33,839 bases of DNA from Bacteroidales bacterium (GTDB taxonomy: Bacteria > Bacteroidota > Bacteroidia > Bacteroidales > UBA1715). Shown here piece by piece: positions 18,672 to 33,839 of this stretch (its first letter is position 1; each line of letters starts with the position of its first letter). The position numbers and the translations under genes were made by a program. The stretch spans positions 1 to 33,839 of the forward strand of contig JAQICB010000016.1 in assembly GCA_027858745.1 (NCBI GenBank), read 5' to 3'. The notes under the pieces were generated by a model. It saw nothing but the letters and a program-made list of their open reading frames with translations. It had not been told where the DNA came from and made no database searches.

Positions 18672-21047
18672 TTACTTGTTTCGGGATGAAACGATTGAAA
18701 ATGGAATTTTTTTCGTATTTCCCAATTCATCTACTATCACTAAAATATGTTTACCAACAGTAGGTGTATACTCTATCTTATGTTCATATTGTGTTGCCTG
18801 CACATATTCTTCATCAACATGCCAAAACAATGTTGTACTGGGTTTTCCATATACGGCTTCGAATATTATTTTTGCTTCATATTCATCTGCTGAAATCGGC
18901 ATCACAATCTCAGCATTATACTGCGGAACTATCACATCTATCACCTCTTCGTTTCGACTCACACAAGTGCTATACAGTTCGGGTAAAGGTGTATATGTTG
19001 CATCTCTTTTTTTATAAAACCATTCTTGTATTGGGGGCAACACAAACCATGCTGTATCTTTCATATGTTGAACGGGATAACAGTGAGCTTGCACCCGAAA
19101 CCTGTAGCTTGAGTCGAGAAATATTTTTCGATGGTACGGACATGCTGTTCCGGAAACACAGGATTGTGGCACAAACATGTCTTTACTCGTACAGTATTTC
19201 TGTGCTCGATAGCCACTTTTGGTACAGATTGGTATGTTTACCATATCATCATTCGGACGATGAAACCAGGTACGTGCATTCAAAAAAGAGAACATTTCGA
19301 ACAGTACAGGAGAAGCATATTGCAATCCGGTAACGCCGGGTCGTCCCTCCCCTGATGCGTTTCCGACCCATACACCAACAGTATATTCGGGTGTAACACC
19401 AACACTCCAGGCATCTCGATGTCCGAAACTGGTACCGGTTTTCCACGCAATTTTCTGTGACGATGCAAAATTTCGCCAGCCAGTCTCTGCCCAGGGACGC
19501 TCCAATGTGGAAAGTGTTGTAAGACATTCATACACTGCACCGGGCGAAAATATAGAATGCGGAATTGAACGTGCATTCGAAGATTTCTGACGTATATACT
19601 GCAAGCCTGTTTGTTCGCCCGGCACCTTACGATTGTGTTGCATAAGTGATTTTCCAAGATAAGTATATGCCGTAACCACATCCCACAAGCTAACTTCTGC
19701 TCCACCTAATATTAAAGACAAACCATACTCTTGTGGATGGCGATTAATAGTAGAAAAATGCAATTTTTCGAGAATATGATAGAATTTTTCTATGCCATAT
19801 TGCTGCAACATACGTACTGCCGGAATGTTAAGTGAATGAGCCAAAGCTTCTGAAGCCGGAACAGCACCGGCATAGTTTTTTTCGAAATTTTCGGGACTAT
19901 ATCCACTAATGGTTGTGGGAATATCTGCCACAAGTTGATGTGGTAACAATTCGCCATCAGAAATCATGGCAGTATACAAAAAAGGTTTCAAAATACTTCC
20001 CGAACTCCGGGGAGCGGAAATAATGTCCACAAATCTATCATTATCAACATGCGGTAACGAAACATTCCCCACATAGGCAAGTACCTCCCCGCTATATGTA
20101 TCTGTTACTAATACTGCAATATTGGAAATATGATTCGCTTGATGATATACCTCTGCATACCGTTGTGCGGTCTGCTCCGCAAATTGTTGTATTGGCGTTT
20201 GAATAGTTGAACGAATACGTTTTCCACCATATCCGTCCGTTTTTGCTCGTTGTAACACATGCGATGCATATTGAGGAATAGCATAGGGTTTATCGGGCAA
20301 AGGTTCGAGCTTGGCTAATTCGTAACTTACCGAATCAATTACTTCTTTGGCATATAATTTATGCAGTAAAAAATTTCGTTTATACAACAGGCGTTCTCTA
20401 TTTTTTCCTGGATGCACTAAGGATGGTGCATTAGGCAAAACCGCCAAAGCACATGCCTCACCCCAGGACAACAATGATGCATCTCGTTTATAATATCGCC
20501 ACGAAGCTGCATCAATACCCACGACATTTCCCCCAAAAGGAGCATGCGACACATATATACGAAGGATTTCTTTTTTTGAATACTTTAACTCCAATCGCAG
20601 TGCCAATATCATTTCATATAATTTAGTCAGAACCGAACGAGAAGAATGATTACACGCCATGCGAATAACCTGCATAGAAATGGTGCTTCCACCACTTACA
20701 ACACGTCCGCCAGAAATATTCTGACGTAACGCTCGTGCCAGAGATACCGGATTTATCCCCGGATGATAATAAAAATATTCATCCTCAAAATACCGAACCG
20801 CCTCACGAATTTTATACGGAATTGTATCCGACTCTGGAAACCGCCATTGTTCATCAGATGAAATAGATGCTGACAATAATCTGTTCTGCGAGTCGACTAA
20901 AACGGTGGCATAATCATTTTGAAATAGAGGAGACGGCAAACAGAACACAAACCATACACAGATTGCACAAAACAACGTAATAATGATTTTACTGCCTGTT
21001 CGCAATTTTCGAACTTTCTTCACAACACGTTCAAATAGTTTTCCCAT
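18672..21047 (-). CDS. pbpC: Penicillin-binding protein 1C (bifunctional peptidoglycan synthase)
   Basis: PBP1C has a glycosyltransferase (GT51) and a transpeptidase-fold domain facing the periplasm. In 791 aa: a membrane anchor at about 19-38; GT51 with the catalytic Glu in FEDEYFYYHPG (E88) and the signature GGSTISMQV (119-127); and the penicillin-binding domain with SILK (nucleophile S351, K354), SLN at 405-407 and KTGT at 536-539. A C-terminal BiPBP_C-like domain covers about 690-791. Cysteines cluster between 608 and 636. All catalytic motifs are intact. It follows the alpha-2-macroglobulin gene by 23 nt, the same pairing seen in many Gram-negatives, and has an unusually clear ribosome binding site. 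Confidence 0.95.
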   Translation of the reverse strand: MGKLFERVVKKVRKLRTGSKIIITLFCAICVWFVFCLPSPLFQNDYATVLVDSQNRLLSASISSDEQWRFPESDTIPYKIREAVRYFEDEYFYYHPGINPVSLARALRQNISGGRVVSGGSTISMQVIRMACNHSSRSVLTKLYEMILALRLELKYSKKEILRIYVSHAPFGGNVVGIDAASWRYYKRDASLLSWGEACALAVLPNAPSLVHPGKNRERLLYKRNFLLHKLYAKEVIDSVSYELAKLEPLPDKPYAIPQYASHVLQRAKTDGYGGKRIRSTIQTPIQQFAEQTAQRYAEVYHQANHISNIAVLVTDTYSGEVLAYVGNVSLPHVDNDRFVDIISAPRSSGSILKPFLYTAMISDGELLPHQLVADIPTTISGYSPENFEKNYAGAVPASEALAHSLNIPAVRMLQQYGIEKFYHILEKLHFSTINRHPQEYGLSLILGGAEVSLWDVVTAYTYLGKSLMQHNRKVPGEQTGLQYIRQKSSNARSIPHSIFSPGAVYECLTTLSTLERPWAETGWRNFASSQKIAWKTGTSFGHRDAWSVGVTPEYTVGVWVGNASGEGRPGVTGLQYASPVLFEMFSFLNARTWFHRPNDDMVNIPICTKSGYRAQKYCTSKDMFVPQSCVSGTACPYHRKIFLDSSYRFRVQAHCYPVQHMKDTAWFVLPPIQEWFYKKRDATYTPLPELYSTCVSRNEEVIDVIVPQYNAEIVMPISADEYEAKIIFEAVYGKPSTTLFWHVDEEYVQATQYEHKIEYTPTVGKHILVIVDELGNTKKIPFSIVSSRNK

Positions 21048-21055
21048 ATAAACTA

Positions 21056-21060
21056 CTCCT
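21056..21060 (-). promoter_or_regulatory. Shine-Dalgarno site of pbpC
   Basis: The minus strand reads AGGAG 8 nt before the pbpC ATG. Bacteroidota genes usually lack such sites, and the other starts I inspected in this window show none. It supports the start at 21047 and may raise PBP1C translation relative to the upstream gene. Confidence 0.6.
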
Positions 21061-21070
21061 CTGTCTCTGT

Positions 21071-24000
21071 TTATTTCGTTACCTCAACCCAATATCCCGG
21101 CACTTTTGCATACACTGTATTATCATACATTGGCTGACAATACAAATTTGGCATATAAAACTTCCCGGTATAGGCTGCATGCAGTAAAATACGGAATGTT
21201 TTTTTCTGACCACGACGTAAATCAAAATACGAATACACTCTATCGTCTCTAATATCCTGATATTGCGGAGCATCTGCCTGTACGGTAGTATGCACCAAAT
21301 CCATACGTGTATTCATAATTTCCCAACCCGAGGGAAAAAGTTGTTCTAAGGCAATATCGGTATAATCATTTGTAATTCCCGGGTGACGAACCATAACCTC
21401 AGCATAAAAATCCGTTCCTTGTTTCAGATTTTTTTGATTAATAGGATTTCCTTTCATATCAAAATACGAAACCGTCATATTCATGTCACTAAACTCTGCG
21501 GTTTCATCCGACATCATTGGCACCCCTTCGAGATACACATTCACAAACTGCGACACTTTCGAGGTATTGGTAACCGCCACCGCATAGGTTTTTGTCTGTG
21601 AAAAATCCAATTTTGCTTGATACACGGGTTTTTCGGTATTTACCGTCAATTCTTTACCGGACAAAACGATGCGTGCCTTCAAATTATCCTTCGAACCCAT
21701 TTGTTCCACAAACTGAGACATTGCCAATAATGCATACGCTGTTGTTTGCGTACTCATCCATGTGTCTTCGGAAAGTTTATCTGCAATTTCATTGGCAAAA
21801 GTATGAGCCGCATCGAGTTCGCCCATCAATACCAGTGTTTCAAGAATCATTGCCTTGTCGCGAGTACGACTTCCGTATGTATAAGCATGATGAGACTGTT
21901 TTGTATCTGATTCATCTATTTTTGCAATAATATCACGAGCCACATCATCTTTACCCGTTTGTGCATACGCAGCTGCTAATCGCCACAATGCAAGATTTGA
22001 TATACCTGCACTTTCCCGCATCCTGTTCATAGCACTTTGTGCGGGTTTTTGAACCAAAGCCAATGTATACAAACGATATGCCTGAATTACATCATTATTT
22101 TGATAACTTTGGTCGCCCACTCGCCACGAATTTGCCTGACGAGTTTGGTAGGCAATCCAATTATCTATAAGAGAACGAGGAATGGTATATCCCTTATTTT
22201 TTGCCGCCACTAAGAAATGACCGGCATAATTTGTTCCCCATTCCGTCACATAATTTCCACCCGGCCAGTAACTGAAACCTCCGCCGGATAATTGAAATTT
22301 CTGCAATCGTTCAATTCCTTCGCGCACATTATAGGAAATTCCCTCCTGCTGTGAGTCAGAAAGATTTACCACAGAGGACAAAAACAATTGTGGAAAAATA
22401 CCCGAAGTGGTTTGTTCGATACAGCCATGCGGATATTTTATTAAAAATTGCAAACGTTTTTGCAAATCAATTGGTTTAATTACCGACAATTCAACAGCAC
22501 CGGCATTTGTACCACTAATTCCAAAAGCTTTCACCTCTTGTTTCCACGTTTCACCGGGTTTTACGAGTGTTTGAATAAGGCGCGTGCTAACTGGATTTGG
22601 CATACGCACCTCAAGATGCGTTTCCGAACGAGCCTGCTCCTTTCCGGAAATTGCCACAATATCAATTTTTCCTTTTCCGACCACATCTTGCACTTTCACC
22701 ATAAACTCCACAACTTTCTCTCCCGGTTTATCAAATTTCACAGAATGCTTCTCAGTACCAATAACCAAGAAATGTGTATCTGTTTTCAAGGAAACAGACA
22801 CCTGCGAAACCTTATCGTTCATCGCAAATACCGTTACCGGAATTGTAATAGTTTCGGTGGGACTCACCAAACGAGGTATTGTCGGCAATACCATCAGAGA
22901 TTTACGGACGGGTACTGTTTTTTCAGCAGAACCATACGCCCCATCTTGTCCCGCAACAACCATACAGCGAACCGAACCAACATAATTTGGCATGGTAAAA
23001 TTGTGTGTATTCTTTTCGTTTTTATCCAATTCGAAAGGACCTAAAACCATCACAACAGGTTTAAATCTATTTGTTTCACTTCCGTCTTTTTTCTCCAAAA
23101 ATTCATCTCCCCCCAATTGCAACAAACCAGCAAGTATACCTTCGAACGCACCGGACACATACTTGTACATATCCCAGGTTCGTACACCAAGTGCTTCTTT
23201 CGAATAAAAAGTATACCATGGATTAGGCGTTTTAAAACGCGTTAAATCGAGCAACCCATCATCGACTATAGCAATAGTATAAGTCATTTTCTTACCCGAT
23301 TTTTCTGAAACCTGCACCGTAAAATTTTGTTCGGGTTGCAATTCATCATTCATACTAATCTCTGGAGTAACATGCGTCTGCGGATCTTCCACACGCACAT
23401 TCTCTATTCCGTACATACGAATTGGTAACTGATTTTCGGACTGATTATGCGGCTGGAGATATGAAATATGAATAAACGCATTAGGCGACATGTCGGGTGT
23501 TGTTTCAATAGTAAAAGTCTGTTCTTTCTTCGTATCAACCCACATTGTTTGTATTACCTTACTTCCATTTTCAATAGACACCAATGCCCGACCTGTTTTA
23601 ATGTCAGGAAGCTTCACCGTAATGAGGTCGCCAACTTTATATAATTCCTTATCAACCGAAAATTGCAACATCTCTGCACCTCCGGGATTTTCACTTCCGG
23701 CATTACTCCACCAACCTTTGTAGGTGGTATAAAATGTTTCACCTGCACGATGTCCACTCTCCATATTCGTTACCTGAATAAACTTTCGTCCCCACGATTC
23801 CACATCGAGATTCATATCAAACATCAGCTTTCCGTCTTTCACCTCTACCGTTTCGGTAAGCAATAAATTTCGGTATCGGTTTGATATATAATTAGCCAAA
23901 TTATCCTCCTCAGATGCATCCCACCAATATCTCCAATAAATTGAAAACACCTCAACTTTCACATTCCCATTCATTGGTTTACCATACTGGTCGACCAAGG

Positions 24001-26629
24001 CAATGGGAATAATATTGCTTTCATTCGAATATAAGGCACTTCTTCGCCCTTTACCTTCCGGCATTTTCAGTCCCACATATGACTCATAGGGAGAATATTT
24101 TACCACAAATCTGTCGGTGCTAAAATCACCTCCGGCGTCAAACGCACGGGTTTTCAGTTGCACATTCACCATACCCGGAGCATTTCGTGTTTCTTGAAAT
24201 GCAAGATTTACCGAGGTATGTCCCTTTTGGTCTACCCGCCCGGAAAACATGGTATATTCCTGCGGATTGAATTCCGCCGCAGGATTATCAAACACATACC
24301 CATCGTAGCCTTTAAAAGACGTTCGTGCCGCCCGCATTGTTGCATCAATTTTCACCTTCGCATTTTGTGCCGGAGCACCGTGCAACCAATCAACTTGCAG
24401 ATTTACCTGCTTGCTTTCTTGCGCAGGAATAATTTCATCAGAAGAAATATCAAAATTAATTTTCATACGGTTTGGCTTAACCGTCTCTATTTTAAGCGAT
24501 TTTGAAAATTCAGAACCACCAACTTTAACCTTCGCAGTCCATGTTCCCGTCGGGTCATCTTCGTCAGTATCTATAAAAAAAGCATAAAAACCATTTGTAT
24601 TTTTCGATTTCACAATTCGCTCTGCCAACTGATTTTCCGGTGTATACAATTCAAACACCACCGGATGATTTGGAGGCAAGATGTTATTTTTATCTTCTAA
24701 AATAAACGTAACAAACAAAGAGTCACCGGGACGCCACACACCACGTTCGCCATAAATATAGCCTTTTATCCCTTTATTCAACTCCTGTCCCTGTACATTA
24801 AACATACTCAAAGACAAAGACGAAGCATTGTCGAGACGTAAATATCCCCGCTGTTCATCTTGTTTTGCAATCAGAATAAAGGGTTTATTTTGTGTCTGAA
24901 TTACCACCTGCCCATCTCCATTCGTTTTCGAAGCAGCAAGCACTTGGTTCTGATAATTTCGCAATTCAATTTCCACACCCGACAAAGGTTCAGCTGTTCG
25001 CACATCCGTTACCACCACATGATAGGCTCCATCGCTCCCCGCTTTGGCAATAATACCAAAATCCGAGGCCAAGACATTTCGTGACACCGTATGATTATTT
25101 CGCATATAATACGAAGGTTTACACGGATTTTTTCTATCTCGCCACGAATAATTTCTCCCATAATTTCGATAATGATATGAATACCCCGAAGAGGGTCCAT
25201 CATATTCCGAATTATCATCCTCCGGTTCTTCATAATATTCTTCATCCTCTGTTTCAGACTCACTACAAGCATAAAGCGAATGCTTTTTCGAAAATCCGAT
25301 ATGCACCTGATATATTGCCCCGGGTTGAGTTTTAATCAACTGCGACAAATCAAGATAAAAAGTATTCCACTCAGCATAATTAATGGGCTTATCAGAAGTT
25401 AAAGGCACCTCACTACGATACACGACACGCCCAACACGAGCAATTTCGCGACTGCCGTCAAATTGATTGACCTGTAAAAACTGCGTAATATTATTCTCAA
25501 AAATTTGTATTATCTTCACATCCACTGCCGAAAGACTCACAGCTTTGAAGGGAAACATAATCCCGTCAGTATTAGGAATAATAACCCCCTCACCCACTAA
25601 TTCCACCTGTGGTTTATGACTCACAAATTCCACTGTATGTTCATAGCGTTTGGCTAATGTTTTTCCCAAACTGTTTTGTAAGGACTCCAACACCTCAAGT
25701 TTAACCTCACCTTGCAGCGATTGTGTCGGGTATATTTTTGCCACACTTCCGTCCACCACAATTTTAAAATTAGATTTCGACAAAGCAAAGAAATCTTTGT
25801 GACTCAACTGGTTTGAATTGAGAGGATCGGAGAAAAACACCGTAAGTGAGGTATTCGGATTTGTCTGCGTGGCAACCCGTATAACCGAGAAATTATCAAT
25901 TGCCGGAATACTTACCCGAAATGTTTTCGTTTCTTCCGCACCAAACAGAGTACCATCACATTCTATCGAAATAGTATATTTATCTTTTTTTCGCGGTACA
26001 CTATCAAGAGAAAAACGAAACAACTTACCATCCTCGCTCGTGAGACTAACTGCTGCTTTACTGCCCGGTATCGAAACTGAGAGGCTCTGTTCAAACACAT
26101 CAACCGGAACATAATCGGCTGTTTGAAAAATCCCATGCACCTTCTGCAGCGAATAATCTTCGAGACTATACGATTCAAAACCGGCAAAATCAAACTCCAT
26201 ATCCTGATGCATTACCTGAAAACGAAATTGCAGTTCAGACAAATCATCCGGCACTTCAATTAATTTACCAAGCTCACAAGTAACCGTATAAATAGCACCC
26301 GACGGCAATCGTTGATCAGGAACAAACGCAATCGTTTGAGCATCTTTCCATACCGCTTTTCCATCAATAGACGGACTGCACGAAAAAGGATTTTTGTCTA
26401 ACTCCTGACCTACAGAAACATTCTCAAATTCCTGTACAAATCGCACCTCAATAGAGGATTGATTGGAAACAACACCCGAGGTGAACGAAATAACATAAGA
26501 AGAAAAAGCCGGGTCAACCTGTATCGGCACCAATGTTTTGGGCGATTCCGAACAAGAATTGAACTGAATAAGACATACTGCAAAAACAAGCATTTTCGCA
26601 AAACGAGAGAGGGGATTTATAGATTTCAT
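21071..26629 (-). CDS. Bacterial alpha-2-macroglobulin lipoprotein (MG domains, thioester)
   Basis: Bacterial alpha-2-macroglobulins are envelope-anchored protease traps: a protease cuts the bait region and is captured by a thioester. The 1852-aa protein has a lipoprotein signal with FNSC and lipid Cys26, followed by a long series of beta-sandwich MG domains. The thioester motif is CIEQ at 1403-1406 in YPHGCIEQTTSG, so the trap should be active. The following alpha-helical thioester domain is visible (FSYWPGGNYVTEWGT and so on). An acidic and Tyr/Ser-rich insertion lies at about 455-520 and starts at Cys455. The gene is immediately upstream of pbpC, as is E. coli yfhM, which suggests joint work on envelope damage. 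The promoter is not clear. Confidence 0.94.
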   Translation of the reverse strand: MKSINPLSRFAKMLVFAVCLIQFNSCSESPKTLVPIQVDPAFSSYVISFTSGVVSNQSSIEVRFVQEFENVSVGQELDKNPFSCSPSIDGKAVWKDAQTIAFVPDQRLPSGAIYTVTCELGKLIEVPDDLSELQFRFQVMHQDMEFDFAGFESYSLEDYSLQKVHGIFQTADYVPVDVFEQSLSVSIPGSKAAVSLTSEDGKLFRFSLDSVPRKKDKYTISIECDGTLFGAEETKTFRVSIPAIDNFSVIRVATQTNPNTSLTVFFSDPLNSNQLSHKDFFALSKSNFKIVVDGSVAKIYPTQSLQGEVKLEVLESLQNSLGKTLAKRYEHTVEFVSHKPQVELVGEGVIIPNTDGIMFPFKAVSLSAVDVKIIQIFENNITQFLQVNQFDGSREIARVGRVVYRSEVPLTSDKPINYAEWNTFYLDLSQLIKTQPGAIYQVHIGFSKKHSLYACSESETEDEEYYEEPEDDNSEYDGPSSGYSYHYRNYGRNYSWRDRKNPCKPSYYMRNNHTVSRNVLASDFGIIAKAGSDGAYHVVVTDVRTAEPLSGVEIELRNYQNQVLAASKTNGDGQVVIQTQNKPFILIAKQDEQRGYLRLDNASSLSLSMFNVQGQELNKGIKGYIYGERGVWRPGDSLFVTFILEDKNNILPPNHPVVFELYTPENQLAERIVKSKNTNGFYAFFIDTDEDDPTGTWTAKVKVGGSEFSKSLKIETVKPNRMKINFDISSDEIIPAQESKQVNLQVDWLHGAPAQNAKVKIDATMRAARTSFKGYDGYVFDNPAAEFNPQEYTMFSGRVDQKGHTSVNLAFQETRNAPGMVNVQLKTRAFDAGGDFSTDRFVVKYSPYESYVGLKMPEGKGRRSALYSNESNIIPIALVDQYGKPMNGNVKVEVFSIYWRYWWDASEEDNLANYISNRYRNLLLTETVEVKDGKLMFDMNLDVESWGRKFIQVTNMESGHRAGETFYTTYKGWWSNAGSENPGGAEMLQFSVDKELYKVGDLITVKLPDIKTGRALVSIENGSKVIQTMWVDTKKEQTFTIETTPDMSPNAFIHISYLQPHNQSENQLPIRMYGIENVRVEDPQTHVTPEISMNDELQPEQNFTVQVSEKSGKKMTYTIAIVDDGLLDLTRFKTPNPWYTFYSKEALGVRTWDMYKYVSGAFEGILAGLLQLGGDEFLEKKDGSETNRFKPVVMVLGPFELDKNEKNTHNFTMPNYVGSVRCMVVAGQDGAYGSAEKTVPVRKSLMVLPTIPRLVSPTETITIPVTVFAMNDKVSQVSVSLKTDTHFLVIGTEKHSVKFDKPGEKVVEFMVKVQDVVGKGKIDIVAISGKEQARSETHLEVRMPNPVSTRLIQTLVKPGETWKQEVKAFGISGTNAGAVELSVIKPIDLQKRLQFLIKYPHGCIEQTTSGIFPQLFLSSVVNLSDSQQEGISYNVREGIERLQKFQLSGGGFSYWPGGNYVTEWGTNYAGHFLVAAKNKGYTIPRSLIDNWIAYQTRQANSWRVGDQSYQNNDVIQAYRLYTLALVQKPAQSAMNRMRESAGISNLALWRLAAAYAQTGKDDVARDIIAKIDESDTKQSHHAYTYGSRTRDKAMILETLVLMGELDAAHTFANEIADKLSEDTWMSTQTTAYALLAMSQFVEQMGSKDNLKARIVLSGKELTVNTEKPVYQAKLDFSQTKTYAVAVTNTSKVSQFVNVYLEGVPMMSDETAEFSDMNMTVSYFDMKGNPINQKNLKQGTDFYAEVMVRHPGITNDYTDIALEQLFPSGWEIMNTRMDLVHTTVQADAPQYQDIRDDRVYSYFDLRRGQKKTFRILLHAAYTGKFYMPNLYCQPMYDNTVYAKVPGYWVEVTK

Positions 26630-26882
26630 TGTGGTTATTTTTTTAATTACTGAGTAAAAATACTATTATTACCCAAATAATTATGTTGAGATAGAAATAT
26701 TTTTATTCACAATATGTGGTTAATTCGTATTTTTTTATCATTCTTTCATACAAACAGTATTCGACTTTTCGCAGAGACTAAATAAAAGGTAAAAAAAATA
26801 TTCATTTCCATTTTCAAAAGATACAATTAGTGTATTCTTTCTATAATAATTCACATTATATAGCCACCCCTTACTTCATAAG

Positions 26883-27007
26883 CTGAGTTCGACGTAATTT
26901 TTCGAGTTCAGATTAGCTCCGCTGAACTCGTCCTTTGTCCTCGGTTGATATAAAAAGCTGTTTATCAAGGCAAATTATTGAATAATAGCGAGCTATTGTA
27001 TAATAAT
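26883..27007 (+). repeat. Structured repeat, copy 1 (three successive inverted repeats)
   Basis: Positions 26883-26998 match 33724-33839 at 114 of 116 bases in the same orientation; beyond that the second copy is cut by the window edge. Three inverted repeats follow one another. Hairpin 1 has an 8-bp perfect stem, CGAGTTCA at 26903-26910 and TGAACTCG at 26923-26930, with a 12-nt loop. Hairpin 2 is TTGATA at 26945-26950 and TATCAA at 26963-26968, also with a 12-nt loop. Hairpin 3 is an AT-rich imperfect palindrome with 16-nt arms (26974-26989 and 26992-27007), 13 of 16 matching. A second GAGTTC at 26885-26890 could compete for the right arm of hairpin 1. No transposase or terminal inverted repeat is seen. 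Nature unknown: a REP-like element, a fragment of an insertion sequence, or a structured RNA. Confidence 0.85.
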
Positions 27008-27126
27008 CATCACACCACACATTCATTATTACATCCACTCAAATTATCAGATAATTCTCTTTTTTTTAGTGAATAACACGTTAATAACTCACATAATAAC
27101 ACCTTATAAAACTAAGGTATTTTAGT

Positions 27127-27162: not shown

Positions 27163-27768
27163 ATGCAAACAGAAACATTTCAAACGATAACAAAGCCATC
27201 TACAGGTTTATTCAAAGACAAGGGCAGTAAATTTATTGCCTACGCACAGCCTGTCGGTTCTATCGACGAAATAACCAAGCATATAGAACGCATCAAAAAA
27301 GAACATCATTCTGCTCGTCATTATTGCTGGGCATATCGCATCGGTTTTCGGGGTGAGGAGTACCGTGTGCAGGACGATGGCGAACCGGTAAATTCTGCAG
27401 GAAAACCTATTCTTGGACAAATTGATGCATTTTCTCTCACACAGGTATTAATTGTTGTTGTCCGTTATTTTGGCGGCACACTTCTTGGTGTCGGAGGACT
27501 AATACAGGCATACAAACAGGCAAGCAAAGATGCATTAGATTCAGCAAACATTAGTACCCAACACATACCATATCCTATTACTATTTCATGTACATATGAA
27601 CATTATCCGCACCTAATGAATATTCTTTCGGGAAATAATTGTACTATTTCCAATGAAGAATATAATAACACAAGATGTAAAATTGACTGTGAAGTAGATA
27701 AAACAACCTTAACTCTTTTGGAACGCGAAAAAAATCTCTATACATCATTGAAAATTAAACTCTCATGA
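27163..27768 (+). CDS. YigZ/IMPACT-family protein
   Basis: This 201-aa protein belongs to the UPF0029/IMPACT family. The eukaryotic member IMPACT inhibits the kinase GCN2; the role of the bacterial members is not established. The N-terminal domain has KKEHHSARHYCWAYRIG and the family signature DDGEPVNSAGKPIL followed by VVVRYFGGTLLGVGGL. The C-terminal part (~130-201) is the ferredoxin-like DUF1949 domain. The length is typical. Its stop overlaps the start of the next gene by 4 nt (ATGA), so the two are translationally coupled. Confidence 0.93.
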   Translation: MQTETFQTITKPSTGLFKDKGSKFIAYAQPVGSIDEITKHIERIKKEHHSARHYCWAYRIGFRGEEYRVQDDGEPVNSAGKPILGQIDAFSLTQVLIVVVRYFGGTLLGVGGLIQAYKQASKDALDSANISTQHIPYPITISCTYEHYPHLMNILSGNNCTISNEEYNNTRCKIDCEVDKTTLTLLEREKNLYTSLKIKLS

Positions 27769-28700: not shown

Positions 28701-31700
28701 ATGTATATTTTTCTGAAACGACTTTTTTTTCTGTGTGTTTTTATAAGTTTGTATGGCTTCAACAATCATATTGATGATAAAAAATCACATTCATCTCCCC
28801 TTCCATATTATCAAAACCCGTTTAGTTCAGACACAGCATGGGCTGATTCGGTGTATGCTTCAATGAATTTGGAAGAACGAATCGGTCAACTGTTTATGGT
28901 AGCAGTATACACCACACCGGAACATTCAAATGAAGCTGCTGTTCGCTCTCTGATACAAAACTATCATATTGGCGGGGTAATTTTCATGAAAGGGTCTCCC
29001 GTTAATCAAATAAAGTGTGCAAACGGACTCCAATCATACTCAAAAATTCCGCTCATGACGGCAATTGATGGCGAATGGGGATTGGCAATGAGATTAGACA
29101 GCACCATCTCATTCCCCAAACAAATTATGCTTGGCGCCATTCAAGACAATGCACTTTTATACGAAATGGGATTAGAAATTGGCAGACAATGCAAACGAGT
29201 TGGCTTACACATAAATTTTGCACCGGTCGTTGATATCAACAACAATGCTCTCAATCCGGTTATAAACTTCCGCTCGTTCGGTGAACTCAAACAAAATGTG
29301 GCGAGAAAAGGCTTATATTACATGATGGGAATGCAAGACGAACAAATAATTACAACCGCAAAGCATTTCCCCGGACACGGCGATACCCAAACAGACTCGC
29401 ATCTTGGACTACCGGTTATTAACCATTCAAAAGAACGATTAGATTCTCTGGAATTATATCCCTTTAAATATCTTATAAATAACAATTTAACCGGCATGAT
29501 GGTTGCGCACCTCCACATTCCGGCACTTGACGATAAAAAAAACAGAGCTTCTACCCTTTCTCCGGCAATTGTTTCTGATTTACTCCAAGATTCTCTGGGT
29601 TTTGAAGGACTCATTTTTACCGATGCTCTCAACATGAAAGGTGTAGCAAAATATTACAAACCGGGAAAATTAGAAATTGCTGCATTATTGGCAGGAAACG
29701 ACGTTTTACTCTTTCCCGAAGATGTCCCAACAGCCGTCGCTGAAATAAAAAAAGCAATTCAAAAAGGAAAACTCTCCGAAGAAATAATCAATTCACGGTG
29801 TAAAAAAATTCTCAGGGCAAAACAATGGATAGGACTCGATTCCTTTACACCAACTGACACTGCCAATGTTTACGAAGATTTACATACTCCCGAAGCTATT
29901 GTGCTCAAACAAAAATTAATTCGCTCAGCAATTACAGTTGTGAAAGACGACAATAACATTCTTCCTTTTCCACACCTTGACACAACATCTATTGCGTACC
30001 TAACATTTTCGAACAAAGAAAATGATATATTTTATGAAACGGCACAAAATTATTCACGAATTAACCGATTTTCAATTCCTGCCGGGGCAAGTCAACAAAC
30101 ATTAGATTCTATTGTAGACACTCTTTCGCACTATTCGGTAGTTCTTCATAACATTACCGGAACAAGCATGTATGCTTCCCGAAAATATGGCATTAAACAA
30201 GAATGGGTTTCAGCTGTAGAAAAACTGGCACAGCATCCGAATTATGTTCTTATACTTCATGCAAATCCATATGCTTTAGATTATTTCACTTCAATTATTC
30301 CCACAATATCGACTGTCGTTGTCGGATATGATTTTACTGATGATGTGTTGCGAGAAACCCCTCAAGTTCTGTTTGGTTCGTACTATTGCAACGGACAACT
30401 TCCAGTTACTGCCGGTGGTTTTGCCGCCGGAACAGGATTGTTCGTCCCCACACTGAAACGCCTTCAATACACACACCCTTTCGATGCGGGACTTGATGCA
30501 GATATTTTGCAAAACATAGATTCTATTGTATACGAAGGAATTGCAGAAGAAGCATTTCCCGGTTGTCAAGTTTTAGTTGCCCGAAGAGGTAAAGTTGTTT
30601 TCCACAAATCGTACGGTCACTTTACCTACGACACAATTCATGCGGTTACAAATACTGCCTTATACGATTTGGCATCAATGACCAAACCATTGGGCACAAC
30701 ATTAAGTTTAATGAAATTATATGAACAACATAAATTTAATTTTGAGCAAACCTTAGGCGATTATTTTGATATTGAAGGCATCGACACAACAGGAAAAGAT
30801 ACAATTAAAATGAAGAACATTTTAACTCATCAATCACAGCTCCATTCATGGATTCCCTTTTATCAATATTTAGTGAAAGATTTTTATAATAGCGAAGAGG
30901 CACATCTTTTTTCTCACAGAAAATCATCATTGTACCCCCACAAATTAAGCAATTCATTGTATTTACGTCATGATTATACATTTATTGACAGCAGCATATC
31001 ACGAAAACCCTCAAAATTATACTCAGTTCCTGTTTCTGACAGTGTATATATAACAAAAGCATATCATGATACCATTTTTAATATGATTTTTCAATCTCCT
31101 CTCTACGAGGAAAAAGAAGTGATATATAGCGATTTAGGCTTTTACTTATTTGCTGAAATCATACAAAAAATTTCAAACAAACGAATTGATAGCTTTGTGT
31201 ATTCTAATTTTTATACATCTATCGGTGCAGATAGATTATGCTATAATCCCTTATTTCAATTTTCAAAAGATGAAATAGCACCAACAGAACATGATTATAT
31301 TTTCCGCCAACAAACTGTACGTGGATACGTTCATGACCCGGGAGCAGCAATGTTGGGAGGTGTTAGCGGTCATGCAGGATTATTTTCGAACAGTAATGAT
31401 GTTGCAAAAATCTGCCAGATGCTCATAAATGAAGGAACATATGGAAACACCAAATACTTGCAAGCCGAAACCATTGCATTATTTACCTCCTGCCCATTTT
31501 GTAACGAAGGAAACCGAAAAGGATATGGATTTGATAAAGCAGATGTGGATCCACATAAATTAGATCCAACCTGCAAATGCACATCACCACAGAGTTATGG
31601 TCACTCCGGATTTACCGGCACCATATTTTGGGTTGATCCAAAATATGATATTATATATGTGTTCCTATCAAACCGAGTGTATCCCGATGCGAGTAACCCA

Positions 31701-31766
31701 AAATTGGGTAGAATGAATATTCGTCCTCGTATACAACAAGTTATTTACGATGCTATCACAGAATAA
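28701..31766 (+). CDS. GH3 N-acetylhexosaminidase-like domain fused to a beta-lactamase-fold serine hydrolase
   Basis: This 1021-aa exported protein joins two enzymes that act on cell-wall material. After a hydrophobic N-terminus (~5-20), the GH3 domain (~45-380) carries the NagZ signature KHFPGHGDTxxDSH (221-234), whose histidine is the general acid/base, and the likely nucleophile D308 in FTDALNMKG. A GH3 C-terminal-like domain fills about 405-585. The beta-lactamase/PBP-like domain (~600-1020) has SMTK (S659, K662), YSD (809-811) and HSG (968-970) in place of KTG. An extra segment of ~60 residues (about 730-790) lies between the first two motifs. Such fusions occur in Bacteroidota. A joint role in peptidoglycan turnover (sugar release plus peptide cleavage) is inference from the NagZ-type motif. 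Confidence 0.9.
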   Translation: MYIFLKRLFFLCVFISLYGFNNHIDDKKSHSSPLPYYQNPFSSDTAWADSVYASMNLEERIGQLFMVAVYTTPEHSNEAAVRSLIQNYHIGGVIFMKGSPVNQIKCANGLQSYSKIPLMTAIDGEWGLAMRLDSTISFPKQIMLGAIQDNALLYEMGLEIGRQCKRVGLHINFAPVVDINNNALNPVINFRSFGELKQNVARKGLYYMMGMQDEQIITTAKHFPGHGDTQTDSHLGLPVINHSKERLDSLELYPFKYLINNNLTGMMVAHLHIPALDDKKNRASTLSPAIVSDLLQDSLGFEGLIFTDALNMKGVAKYYKPGKLEIAALLAGNDVLLFPEDVPTAVAEIKKAIQKGKLSEEIINSRCKKILRAKQWIGLDSFTPTDTANVYEDLHTPEAIVLKQKLIRSAITVVKDDNNILPFPHLDTTSIAYLTFSNKENDIFYETAQNYSRINRFSIPAGASQQTLDSIVDTLSHYSVVLHNITGTSMYASRKYGIKQEWVSAVEKLAQHPNYVLILHANPYALDYFTSIIPTISTVVVGYDFTDDVLRETPQVLFGSYYCNGQLPVTAGGFAAGTGLFVPTLKRLQYTHPFDAGLDADILQNIDSIVYEGIAEEAFPGCQVLVARRGKVVFHKSYGHFTYDTIHAVTNTALYDLASMTKPLGTTLSLMKLYEQHKFNFEQTLGDYFDIEGIDTTGKDTIKMKNILTHQSQLHSWIPFYQYLVKDFYNSEEAHLFSHRKSSLYPHKLSNSLYLRHDYTFIDSSISRKPSKLYSVPVSDSVYITKAYHDTIFNMIFQSPLYEEKEVIYSDLGFYLFAEIIQKISNKRIDSFVYSNFYTSIGADRLCYNPLFQFSKDEIAPTEHDYIFRQQTVRGYVHDPGAAMLGGVSGHAGLFSNSNDVAKICQMLINEGTYGNTKYLQAETIALFTSCPFCNEGNRKGYGFDKADVDPHKLDPTCKCTSPQSYGHSGFTGTIFWVDPKYDIIYVFLSNRVYPDASNPKLGRMNIRPRIQQVIYDAITE

Positions 31767-32681: not shown

Positions 32682-33650
32682 ATGGCAGATAATTCTCATA
32701 ACTACCTATGGAATCACAGTCGTCCCTTTAATTCATATGCAAGTTACATAAAAGAAACCTTTGGCGGACGGATTCAAAAAATAAGTGTTAACGGCAATTT
32801 CACCTGTCCAAACAGAGATGGCACAAAAGGATATGGCGGATGTGCGTATTGCAACAACGACGCCTTTATAACCGCATACTGCACACCGGAGAAAAGTATA
32901 CGCGAACAAATTATTGAAGGCAAACAATTTGTACTCAAACGCTATAAAAAAGCAACACAATTTTTTGCGTATTTACAAGCGTATTCAAATACCTACACTA
33001 GTATTTCAAGATTAGAAGAAATAATATCGGAAATACGACAATTTCCCGAAATTATCGGCTGCATTATCGGTACCCGTCCCGACTGTATAGATGCTGAAAA
33101 ACTCGATTTTTTTCAGAACTTACAGAAAGAATTCTACATTGTATTAGAATACGGAATAGAATCGGTTTACGACAAAACCTTAGCTGCAATTAACCGCGGA
33201 CATGATTTTGCCTGTTCACGCAATGCAATTACAGAAACCGCACAACGAGGTATTCCTGTAGGTGCACATATAATTTTGGGACTACCCGGAGAATCTCATG
33301 AAGAAATATTAGAATCTGCAGCAATTATATCAACACTCCCACTTACCAGTATCAAATTGCATCAACTACAAATTGTAAAAAACACCCAATTTGCCGTTGA
33401 TTATGCTCACAATCCCGAAAAATTTTCTCTGTTCACCCCCCACACATATATCCCCTTTGTTGCCGAGTACCTAAGTCGTTTATCTCCCGACATTATGATA
33501 GAACGACTTGCAAGCGACTCACCGAGAAGAGTGAGAATAGCACCCGAATGGGAAGGCGTAAAATATGAGTCTTTTGTCCAAATGCTTGAAGACTATATGA
33601 TTTCGCATAAAGTATGGCAGGGGAAAAAGTATCATACACATAATTTATAA
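32682..33650 (+). CDS. YhcC-type radical SAM protein (TIGR01212 family)
   Basis: Radical SAM enzymes use a 4Fe-4S cluster to cleave S-adenosylmethionine and generate a radical. In this 322-aa protein the cluster cysteines are C42, C54 and C57, spaced CX11CX2C, which differs from the standard CX3CX2C but is typical of the YhcC/TIGR01212 family. Other family features are NGNFTCPNRDGT before the cluster, ILGLPGES in the barrel, and a C-terminal part with DIMIERLASDSPR. The substrate of the family is not known to me. It begins 11 nt after the acidic-tailed protein gene and is probably co-transcribed with it. Bases 33651-33723 after its stop hold no gene or clear terminator. Confidence 0.93.
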   Translation: MADNSHNYLWNHSRPFNSYASYIKETFGGRIQKISVNGNFTCPNRDGTKGYGGCAYCNNDAFITAYCTPEKSIREQIIEGKQFVLKRYKKATQFFAYLQAYSNTYTSISRLEEIISEIRQFPEIIGCIIGTRPDCIDAEKLDFFQNLQKEFYIVLEYGIESVYDKTLAAINRGHDFACSRNAITETAQRGIPVGAHIILGLPGESHEEILESAAIISTLPLTSIKLHQLQIVKNTQFAVDYAHNPEKFSLFTPHTYIPFVAEYLSRLSPDIMIERLASDSPRRVRIAPEWEGVKYESFVQMLEDYMISHKVWQGKKYHTHNL

Positions 33651-33723
33651 AATTCATGTAAATATTAACGTGCCACTTAATTTCAAACAAGTTGTTAATT
33701 TTGTTCGGCAATTACCTTACAAC

Positions 33724-33839
33724 CTGAGTTCGACGTAATTTTTTGAGTTCAGATTAGCTCCGCTGAGCTCGTCCTTTGTCCTCGGTTGATATAAAAAGCT
33801 GTTTATCAAGGCAAATTATTGAATAATAGCGAGCTATTG
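33724..33839 (+). repeat. Structured repeat, copy 2, cut by the window end
   Basis: It matches 26883-26998 except for T at 33744 (C in copy 1) and G at 33767 (A in copy 1). Both changes lie in the stem of hairpin 1 (33744-33751 with 33764-33771) and leave T-G pairs, so a plus-strand RNA would still fold. The second change also creates a perfect alternative hairpin, AGCTC/GAGCT (33756-33760 with 33765-33769). Hairpin 2 (33786-33791 with 33804-33809) is identical to copy 1. The left arm of hairpin 3 is 33815-33830; the right arm is truncated after 7 of 16 bases by the end of the sequence. Confidence 0.85.

Follow-up and report, generated by a model that had tools for sequence, protein, structure and literature searches.

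Among described elements, those closest to the repeat reported here are MITEs of Porphyromonas gingivalis and of Cardinium, the latter a member of the Bacteroidota. For P. gingivalis, PMC4596501 gives the terminal inverted repeats (TIRs) of MITE239 (ACGTGAGTTCGATATAAAGGAA) and of ISPg3 (ACGTCAGTTCGA) and lists ISPg3 under IS5; in our own reading, its ends would place it with IS982. PMC9769881 describes MITECca01 of Cardinium cOegib as a ~240 bp element derived from ISCca4 (IS982 family) and present in 169 mostly intergenic copies; its ISCca4 parent persists in 7 intact copies, and some parental sequence remains in MITECca01. IS982-derived MITEs are already known, namely MITECca01 and, by their TIRs, MITE239 and MITE700 (PMC9769881, PMC4596501).

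The window (the whole stretch of DNA that was analysed, 33,839 nucleotides) is one entire contig of a 2.92-Mb genome assembled into 169 contigs. An earlier note had described within it a 125-base repeat of three consecutive hairpins, present twice and assigned to no known class. We conclude, with a probability of roughly 0.93, that this repeat is the left part of a ~294-bp MITE of a new IS982-type family, which would explain a previously unassigned repeat. The element is supported by its TIRs, 5-bp duplications, copy number, intergenic placement and the match of its ends to those of IS982 elements. It is this IS982-type MITE family that is new; its kind is known, and is akin to MITE239/MITE700 and MITECca01. 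A literature search yielded no title or abstract that we recognised as describing the element, which is not proof of absence. Its TIRs are of the same type as those of MITE239, MITE700 and ISPg3 as given in PMC4596501, and the two P. gingivalis MITEs lack a transposase, as does the element here; unlike them, it has C as its third base (ACCTGAG) and occurs in a different host. It resembles MITECca01 in being an IS982-type, mostly intergenic MITE, but differs from that element, as portrayed in PMC9769881, in having neither a parent that we could find nor any parental coding sequence.

A repeat search of the window returned a same-strand direct repeat of 128 nt at 95% identity (26871-26998 and 33712-33839, 6841 bp apart). 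The two copies agree at 115 of 118 positions (26881-26998 against 33722-33839), which bears out the earlier description of nearly identical copies in the same orientation, although the element boundary lies at the TIR, at 26881, and not at 26883 as formerly given. Copy 1 is a right-truncated copy that has lost the right part and the right TIR, and copy 2 is truncated by the assembly (Table 1).

Table 1. Features of the two MITE copies and of their surroundings in the window.
Feature	Position	Strand	Description
Bacterial alpha-2-macroglobulin	21071..26629	-	1852 aa; flanking gene outside element
Outer flank of copy 1	26876..26880	.	TCATA; left target-duplication candidate, right partner lost
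Left terminal inverted repeat, copy 1	26881..26902	+	AGCTGAGTTCGACGTAATTTTT
33-bp left-end unit, copy 1	26881..26913	+	Imperfect palindrome ACCTGAGTTCGA..TCGAGTTCAGAT (consensus)
Nested 32-bp segment, copy 1	26915..26946	+	AGCTCCGCTGAACTCGTCCTTTGTCCTCGGTT
Second hairpin, copy 1	26945..26968	+	TTGATA-12 nt-TATCAA; sequence conserved, two-sided changes absent
AT-rich imperfect palindrome, copy 1	26974..27007	+	Likeness to full element stops about here
UPF0029 protein	27163..27768	+	201 aa; flanking gene outside element
Radical SAM protein	32682..33650	+	322 aa; upstream of copy 2
Outer flank of copy 2	33717..33721	.	TTACA; left target-duplication candidate
Copy 2	33722..33839	+	First 118 bp of MITE, cut by contig end (33839)

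The earlier note had reported an absence of terminal inverted repeats and partly on that account had set aside a simple MITE. For the whole element both statements are mistaken: both ends are present in 41 copies elsewhere in the genome, and the TIRs went unseen in the window because copy 1 is without its right part and copy 2 is stopped by the contig end, so that the right TIR lies outside both visible pieces. Its report of no ORF or transposase stands, the longest stop-free stretch in the consensus being 51 codons, and no transposase similarity is left inside the consensus.

In other copies a second end, AAAAATTATATCGAACTCAGGT, is seen beyond the 125 bp; apart from two bases, it repeats the left end, ACCTGAGTTCGACGTAATTTTT, in inverted orientation. 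Full-length copies measure 288-295 bp and shorter forms 79-262 bp; those shorter forms that were read are missing interior stretches. The element is thus short (79-295 bp), is present in high copy number and has no transposase coding capacity. When the home genome was searched with a 34-nt core at ≤3 mismatches, 63 sites were found against 0 for the reversed control, which places the repeat far above chance. A DNA search of the same genome gave at least 41 matches (the best 40 of 161 first-look candidates were scored), and TIR-like sites numbered 233 against 0 in the control; searching the whole genome, as the earlier note had proposed, thus revealed many copies, and homologues were found in relatives.

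The end units of the home genome comprise 99 left and 94 right units. Among the ends listed, at least 31 adjacent convergent pairs lie less than 450 bp apart; 30 of the 31 join one left to one right unit, the remaining pair joins a left unit to an end matched by the shorter TIR pattern only, and none is left-left or right-right. For 33 of the ends listed, a contig start lies within 300 bp on the inner side, and because many unpaired ends are near contig ends, the halves of one copy may be counted apart. We infer that the genome holds roughly 95-150 copies, in addition to solo units. At least 17 of the 41 listed DNA matches touch a contig end, and MITE copies at these positions offer a reason why this metagenome assembly breaks there. 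The 294-bp consensus was unmatched in the plasmid and phage collections searched, from which near records may be left out, and it gave no full match to a Bacteroidetes-type promoter motif, whose -7 part alone matched twice.

To define target duplications we counted a copy as complete if it was 79 bp or longer and its closing end had no more than 2 mismatches over 12 positions (n=41). The 5-bp flanks are identical in 19 of these and carry one mismatch in 12 more, whereas shuffled right flanks gave a mean of 2.9 perfect matches and reached 19 in 0 of 10,000 trials; the target-site duplication is therefore 5 bp long. A broader set of 141 candidate end pairs, which includes the inner 33-bp unit of ordinary copies, has 26 matches at 5 bp; other lengths and offsets gave 0-2 matches, except for 2-bp (up to 41) and 3-bp (up to 27) matches. 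Among 219 distinct ends from fetched loci (which cover part of the 233 sites, at a looser mismatch limit than the TIR count), 204 carry T at the fifth base outwards and A immediately beside the end, so that the target is TNNNA. Against this evidence, the flanks differ at two or more of the five positions in 10 of the 41 complete copies, and only 2 of 9 full-length copies have a perfect duplication, the other 7 being imperfect; older insertions or exchange between copies would fit the imperfect duplications.

Placement was assessed for 201 distinct flanks for which 600 bp or more of outer sequence was available, the two ends of one copy counting twice. Only 14 of the 201 fall within stop-to-stop ORFs of 120 codons or longer, compared with 81% of control points taken 100-590 bp further out. 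Where an ORF was found outward of the flank, the nearest one has its end facing the element in 124 cases and its start in 63. The element is consequently intergenic, and more often lies downstream of genes. An empty site in the same-genus genome G001 could not serve as proof of insertion: the stretch retrieved contains no match to the upstream gene, and divergence at the DNA level is too great for the exact site to be seen, although the two downstream genes are in order (58% and 63% protein identity) and no MITE is present in the gap that was read.

The element ends, ACCTGAGTTCGA(C/T)(G/A)TAA, appear to be those of the IS982 family. Compared with the family inverted-repeat consensus AC(N)6T(N)5TT given in PMC7335449, they fit at AC, T9 and T15, while base 16 is A, not T. 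We searched 393 genomes of the order with the TIR pattern at ≤1 mismatch and matched 35, home included; single sites may be due to chance, given that the reversed control hit once in each of 7 genomes. One of the loci found (L359, in genome G334) is a 1027-bp IS982 element with ACCTGAGTTCGATATAA at both ends. The right-type TIR of the MITE is identical at 17 of 17 positions to both of these ends, and the left type at 15 of 17. Against NF033520 (the model for IS982 family transposases, cut-off 130) the open frame of L359 reaches 268.8 bits; the gene start is in another frame, so that it looks frameshifted, and there is no clear duplication. A second element (L348, in G302) is 1032 bp long, has ends ACGTGAGTTCGATATAA, which differ by one changed base (ACGTGAG), and is flanked on both sides by TAATTA, a 6-bp duplication; its open frame scores 256.9 bits against NF033520. 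Both proteins also match PF13612. The TIR of L359 is thus that of the MITE right type, and the two elements differ from the MITE in their length and in carrying a transposase frame.

Two further loci (L355 and L361) have pieces of IS982 transposase beside or between TIRs, at 102-124 bits, below the cut-off, and no IS982 gene was recognised by eye at the other TIR loci that were read, which could be ends of MITEs or of solo units. G001, a genome of the same genus, has no TIR site at ≤1 mismatch, but its locus L379 contains an IS982 frame (72.4 bits) that seems to have undergone deletion and that stops at a more diverged TIR, ACCTGAGTTCGGTTTAA, 2 mismatches from the pattern. Counting against the assignment, duplications in relatives are longer, at 6 bp in L348 and L355 and 7 bp at the MITE of G002, a genome of another genus in the same family.

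The home assembly yielded no IS982 transposase, its sole match to the model (50 bits, on contig C93) being a weak cross-match to an IS5-type gene; with the assembly in 169 contigs, the absence of the parent is not proved. In our judgement an intact parental IS in the same genome is not required for MITE status, since parents can be lost. Under the proposed mechanism, an IS982-type DDE transposase acting in trans would bind both ends, move the element and insert it at a TNNNA target, which would be duplicated. We infer that such a transposase moved these copies; it would since have been lost, or would lie in unassembled repeats. The earlier note had named an insertion-sequence relic among its options, which came close to the truth, and had regarded copies that are the ends of a known, transposase-bearing insertion sequence as evidence against its unit: the ends do match a known family, and other genomes, though not the home assembly, yielded its transposase. 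Its suggestion of a selected unit was not borne out.

Two other transposase genes were considered as parents and rejected. The IS1380-type gene on home contig C140 (locus L231, one transposase gene with a 431-codon open frame) lies between different inverted repeats, CCTCAAATCCGCAGTTA. The gene near a TIR of G002, which we take to be IS4-like, has inverted repeats of its own, TTTTATCGGACAA.

With a degenerate TIR pattern at ≤1 mismatch, 3 of 31 genomes (home and 30 relatives) have sites: home, G002 (21) and G005 (3). The interior of one G002 copy, L063, is 71% identical to that of the home MITE over 159 nt (E 8e-18), and this alignment suggests that the interior is inherited. The G002 MITEs have similar end units and, in L063 (372 bp, the only copy so compared), a homologous interior, but their ends begin ACGTGAG or ACGTCAA, and L063 is without the nested 32-bp segment and has a 7-bp duplication. 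In G005 the ends are similar to those of the home MITE. The exact 32-nt end also occurs on two contigs of the GTDB collection, from a Bacteroidales MAG (GH48) and a Prolixibacteraceae MAG (GH41). These results add a family of IS982-type MITEs that has a relative in a second genus of the same taxonomic family.

The nested segment follows 75 left ends and is lacking at 12 others that apparently run on as MITE (L156 is doubtful); another 72 pattern matches consist mainly of right ends and solo units, and one more is too short. Neither the GH48 copy nor the G002 MITE has the segment. Its alignment rests on the rows of the window, L165, L383 and L063; those of L139, L310 and L312, which gave no useful alignment, were set aside. 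From this distribution the segment would seem to have been inserted rather than lost repeatedly. With the pattern AGCTCMGCTGARCTCGTNCTTTGTNC at ≤2 mismatches, 2 of the 31 genomes have sites: home with 80 and G009 with 8. All eight G009 sites (L310, L312, L314, L316, L318, L320, L322 and L324, a repeat of ~36 bp homologous to the segment) read ATGAACCGA.. at an apparent reading-frame start, giving the peptide MNRSTKYELSGAKK or a variant, for which no paper was found. The proteins that follow are different, though those of L322 and L324 are alike, and several have the look of exported proteins. At three of the sites the frame is short (19 and 46 residues as computed by script, ~34 as read by eye in L318). 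The segment ties the MITE to start-codon repeats in a relative.

How should the three hairpins be understood? All three inverted repeats described by the earlier note are present in copy 1, the second with its 12-nt loop and the third as an AT-rich imperfect palindrome much as stated, but the first stem measures 9 bp with a 10-nt loop, not 8 bp with a 12-nt loop. A structured RNA (riboswitch, sRNA or terminator-like) selected for these hairpins could account for the stems, for the pairing of 96.3% of their cells in an alignment of 33 copies (29 distinct, picked from 53 matches by score and length), where slid versions pair far less and 3 of 500 shuffles equalled the pairing or covariation score, and for a fold somewhat stronger than that of shuffles (z-score -1.99; 7 of 200 as good). 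Related copies can, however, exceed shuffles without structure, and since these copies are closely related, the pairing says little for structure. A two-sided change was found in 1 of 28 pairs, where 2 sequences carry it, and one or more pairs of this sort turned up in 96 of 500 shuffles, so that the stems pair in the multi-copy alignment but lack convincing covariation; in stem 1, the plain A-T pair provided by the A of copy 1 occurs in 2 of the 29 distinct sequences, and most have G-T. Rfam gave 0 matches at the gathering score in the window, and internal deletions take out parts of the hairpin region. Stem 1, moreover, bridges two modules, its left arm lying in the 33-bp end unit and its right arm in the nested segment that is missing from other copies, so that the three-hairpin unit results from the make-up of the element together with a probable nested insertion and an AT-rich palindrome. 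We consider a structured RNA very improbable. Still slighter is the chance of a palindromic repeat of the REP/BIME kind, mobilised by a RAYT (Y1) transposase: each end unit is indeed a 33-bp imperfect palindrome and solo copies exist, and to this extent the REP-like option of the earlier note holds as a resemblance, but the 5-bp duplications, the convergent TIRs and the identity to IS982 ends all point to a DDE transposase.

Within the preferred reading, an IS982-type MITE, the solo copies of the 33-bp end, with their target duplications, and the nested segment are unusual, and the origin of the solo copies allows two accounts. Solo units with a closing end within 2 mismatches number 25, 8 with a perfect 5-bp duplication and 17 without, where shuffles gave a mean of 1.56 perfect and 8 or more in 0 of 10,000; not all 25 are clean solos, as L275-L277 and L258 retain a few bases of the MITE interior. 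We lean towards deletion for most of them, the other possible origin being transposition of the unit itself, and consider it somewhat more likely than not that the solo copies arose by local deletion within older insertions and are not themselves mobile units. The left unit (..GTTCAG|AT) and the right end (..CTCAG|GT) have TCAG in common, so that one deletion yields ..GTTCAGGT, the commonest solo form (8 exact sites, of which that on C35 is part of a 157-bp copy), and one solo copy at L157 shows the other possible crossover, TCGAAC. Deletion is harder to reconcile with the recurrence of the same junction in several solo copies, and a deletion of this form does not make the perfectly duplicated solos that end ..CAGAT (L058, L252) or the right-type unit of L306. 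The alternative, that the 33-bp end unit is itself transposable and, separately, that the nested 32-bp segment is a second mobile palindrome, we regard as unlikely. Here the imperfect palindrome would carry two transposase sites back to back, and the duplicated solo copies would rank with the smallest elements that a DDE transposase mobilises; the segment would have landed on start codons in one relative, supplying an ATG and a common 14-residue N-terminus to unrelated exported proteins. The solo 33-bp copies offer a test of the minimum size for a DDE-mobilised element.

Among individual solo loci, L307 holds a further 32-bp unit with TAATA on both sides, as judged by eye, and L157 has two solo units with perfect 5-bp duplications about 1.3 kb apart. 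At the start of home contig C169 (L094), 117 nt at the contig end are identical to L383 in the GH48 MAG, perhaps another assembly-breaking repeat.

Some further features of the window may be noted. The alpha-2-macroglobulin gene adjoins that of a penicillin-binding protein with a BiPBP_C domain (together 18672-26629), a 1021-aa protein at 28701-31766 has a family 3 glycosyl hydrolase domain and a beta-lactamase-like domain, and the gene content includes SprA_N and Porin_10 proteins, which, taken with the two MAG contigs that bear the exact 32-nt end, points to a genome of the Bacteroidales. The stop codon of the radical SAM gene lies 71 bp from copy 2. An oriC at 27 kb was considered and rejected, as the GC skew keeps its sign and DnaA-box-like sites are no more frequent than expected by chance. 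Upstream of the UPF0029 gene, whose product is presumably YigZ/IMPACT-like, the sequence GTGAATAACACGTTAATAACTC (27069-27090) is identical in the same-genus G001, and a similar motif lies upstream of the UPF0029 homologue in G005 and G002.
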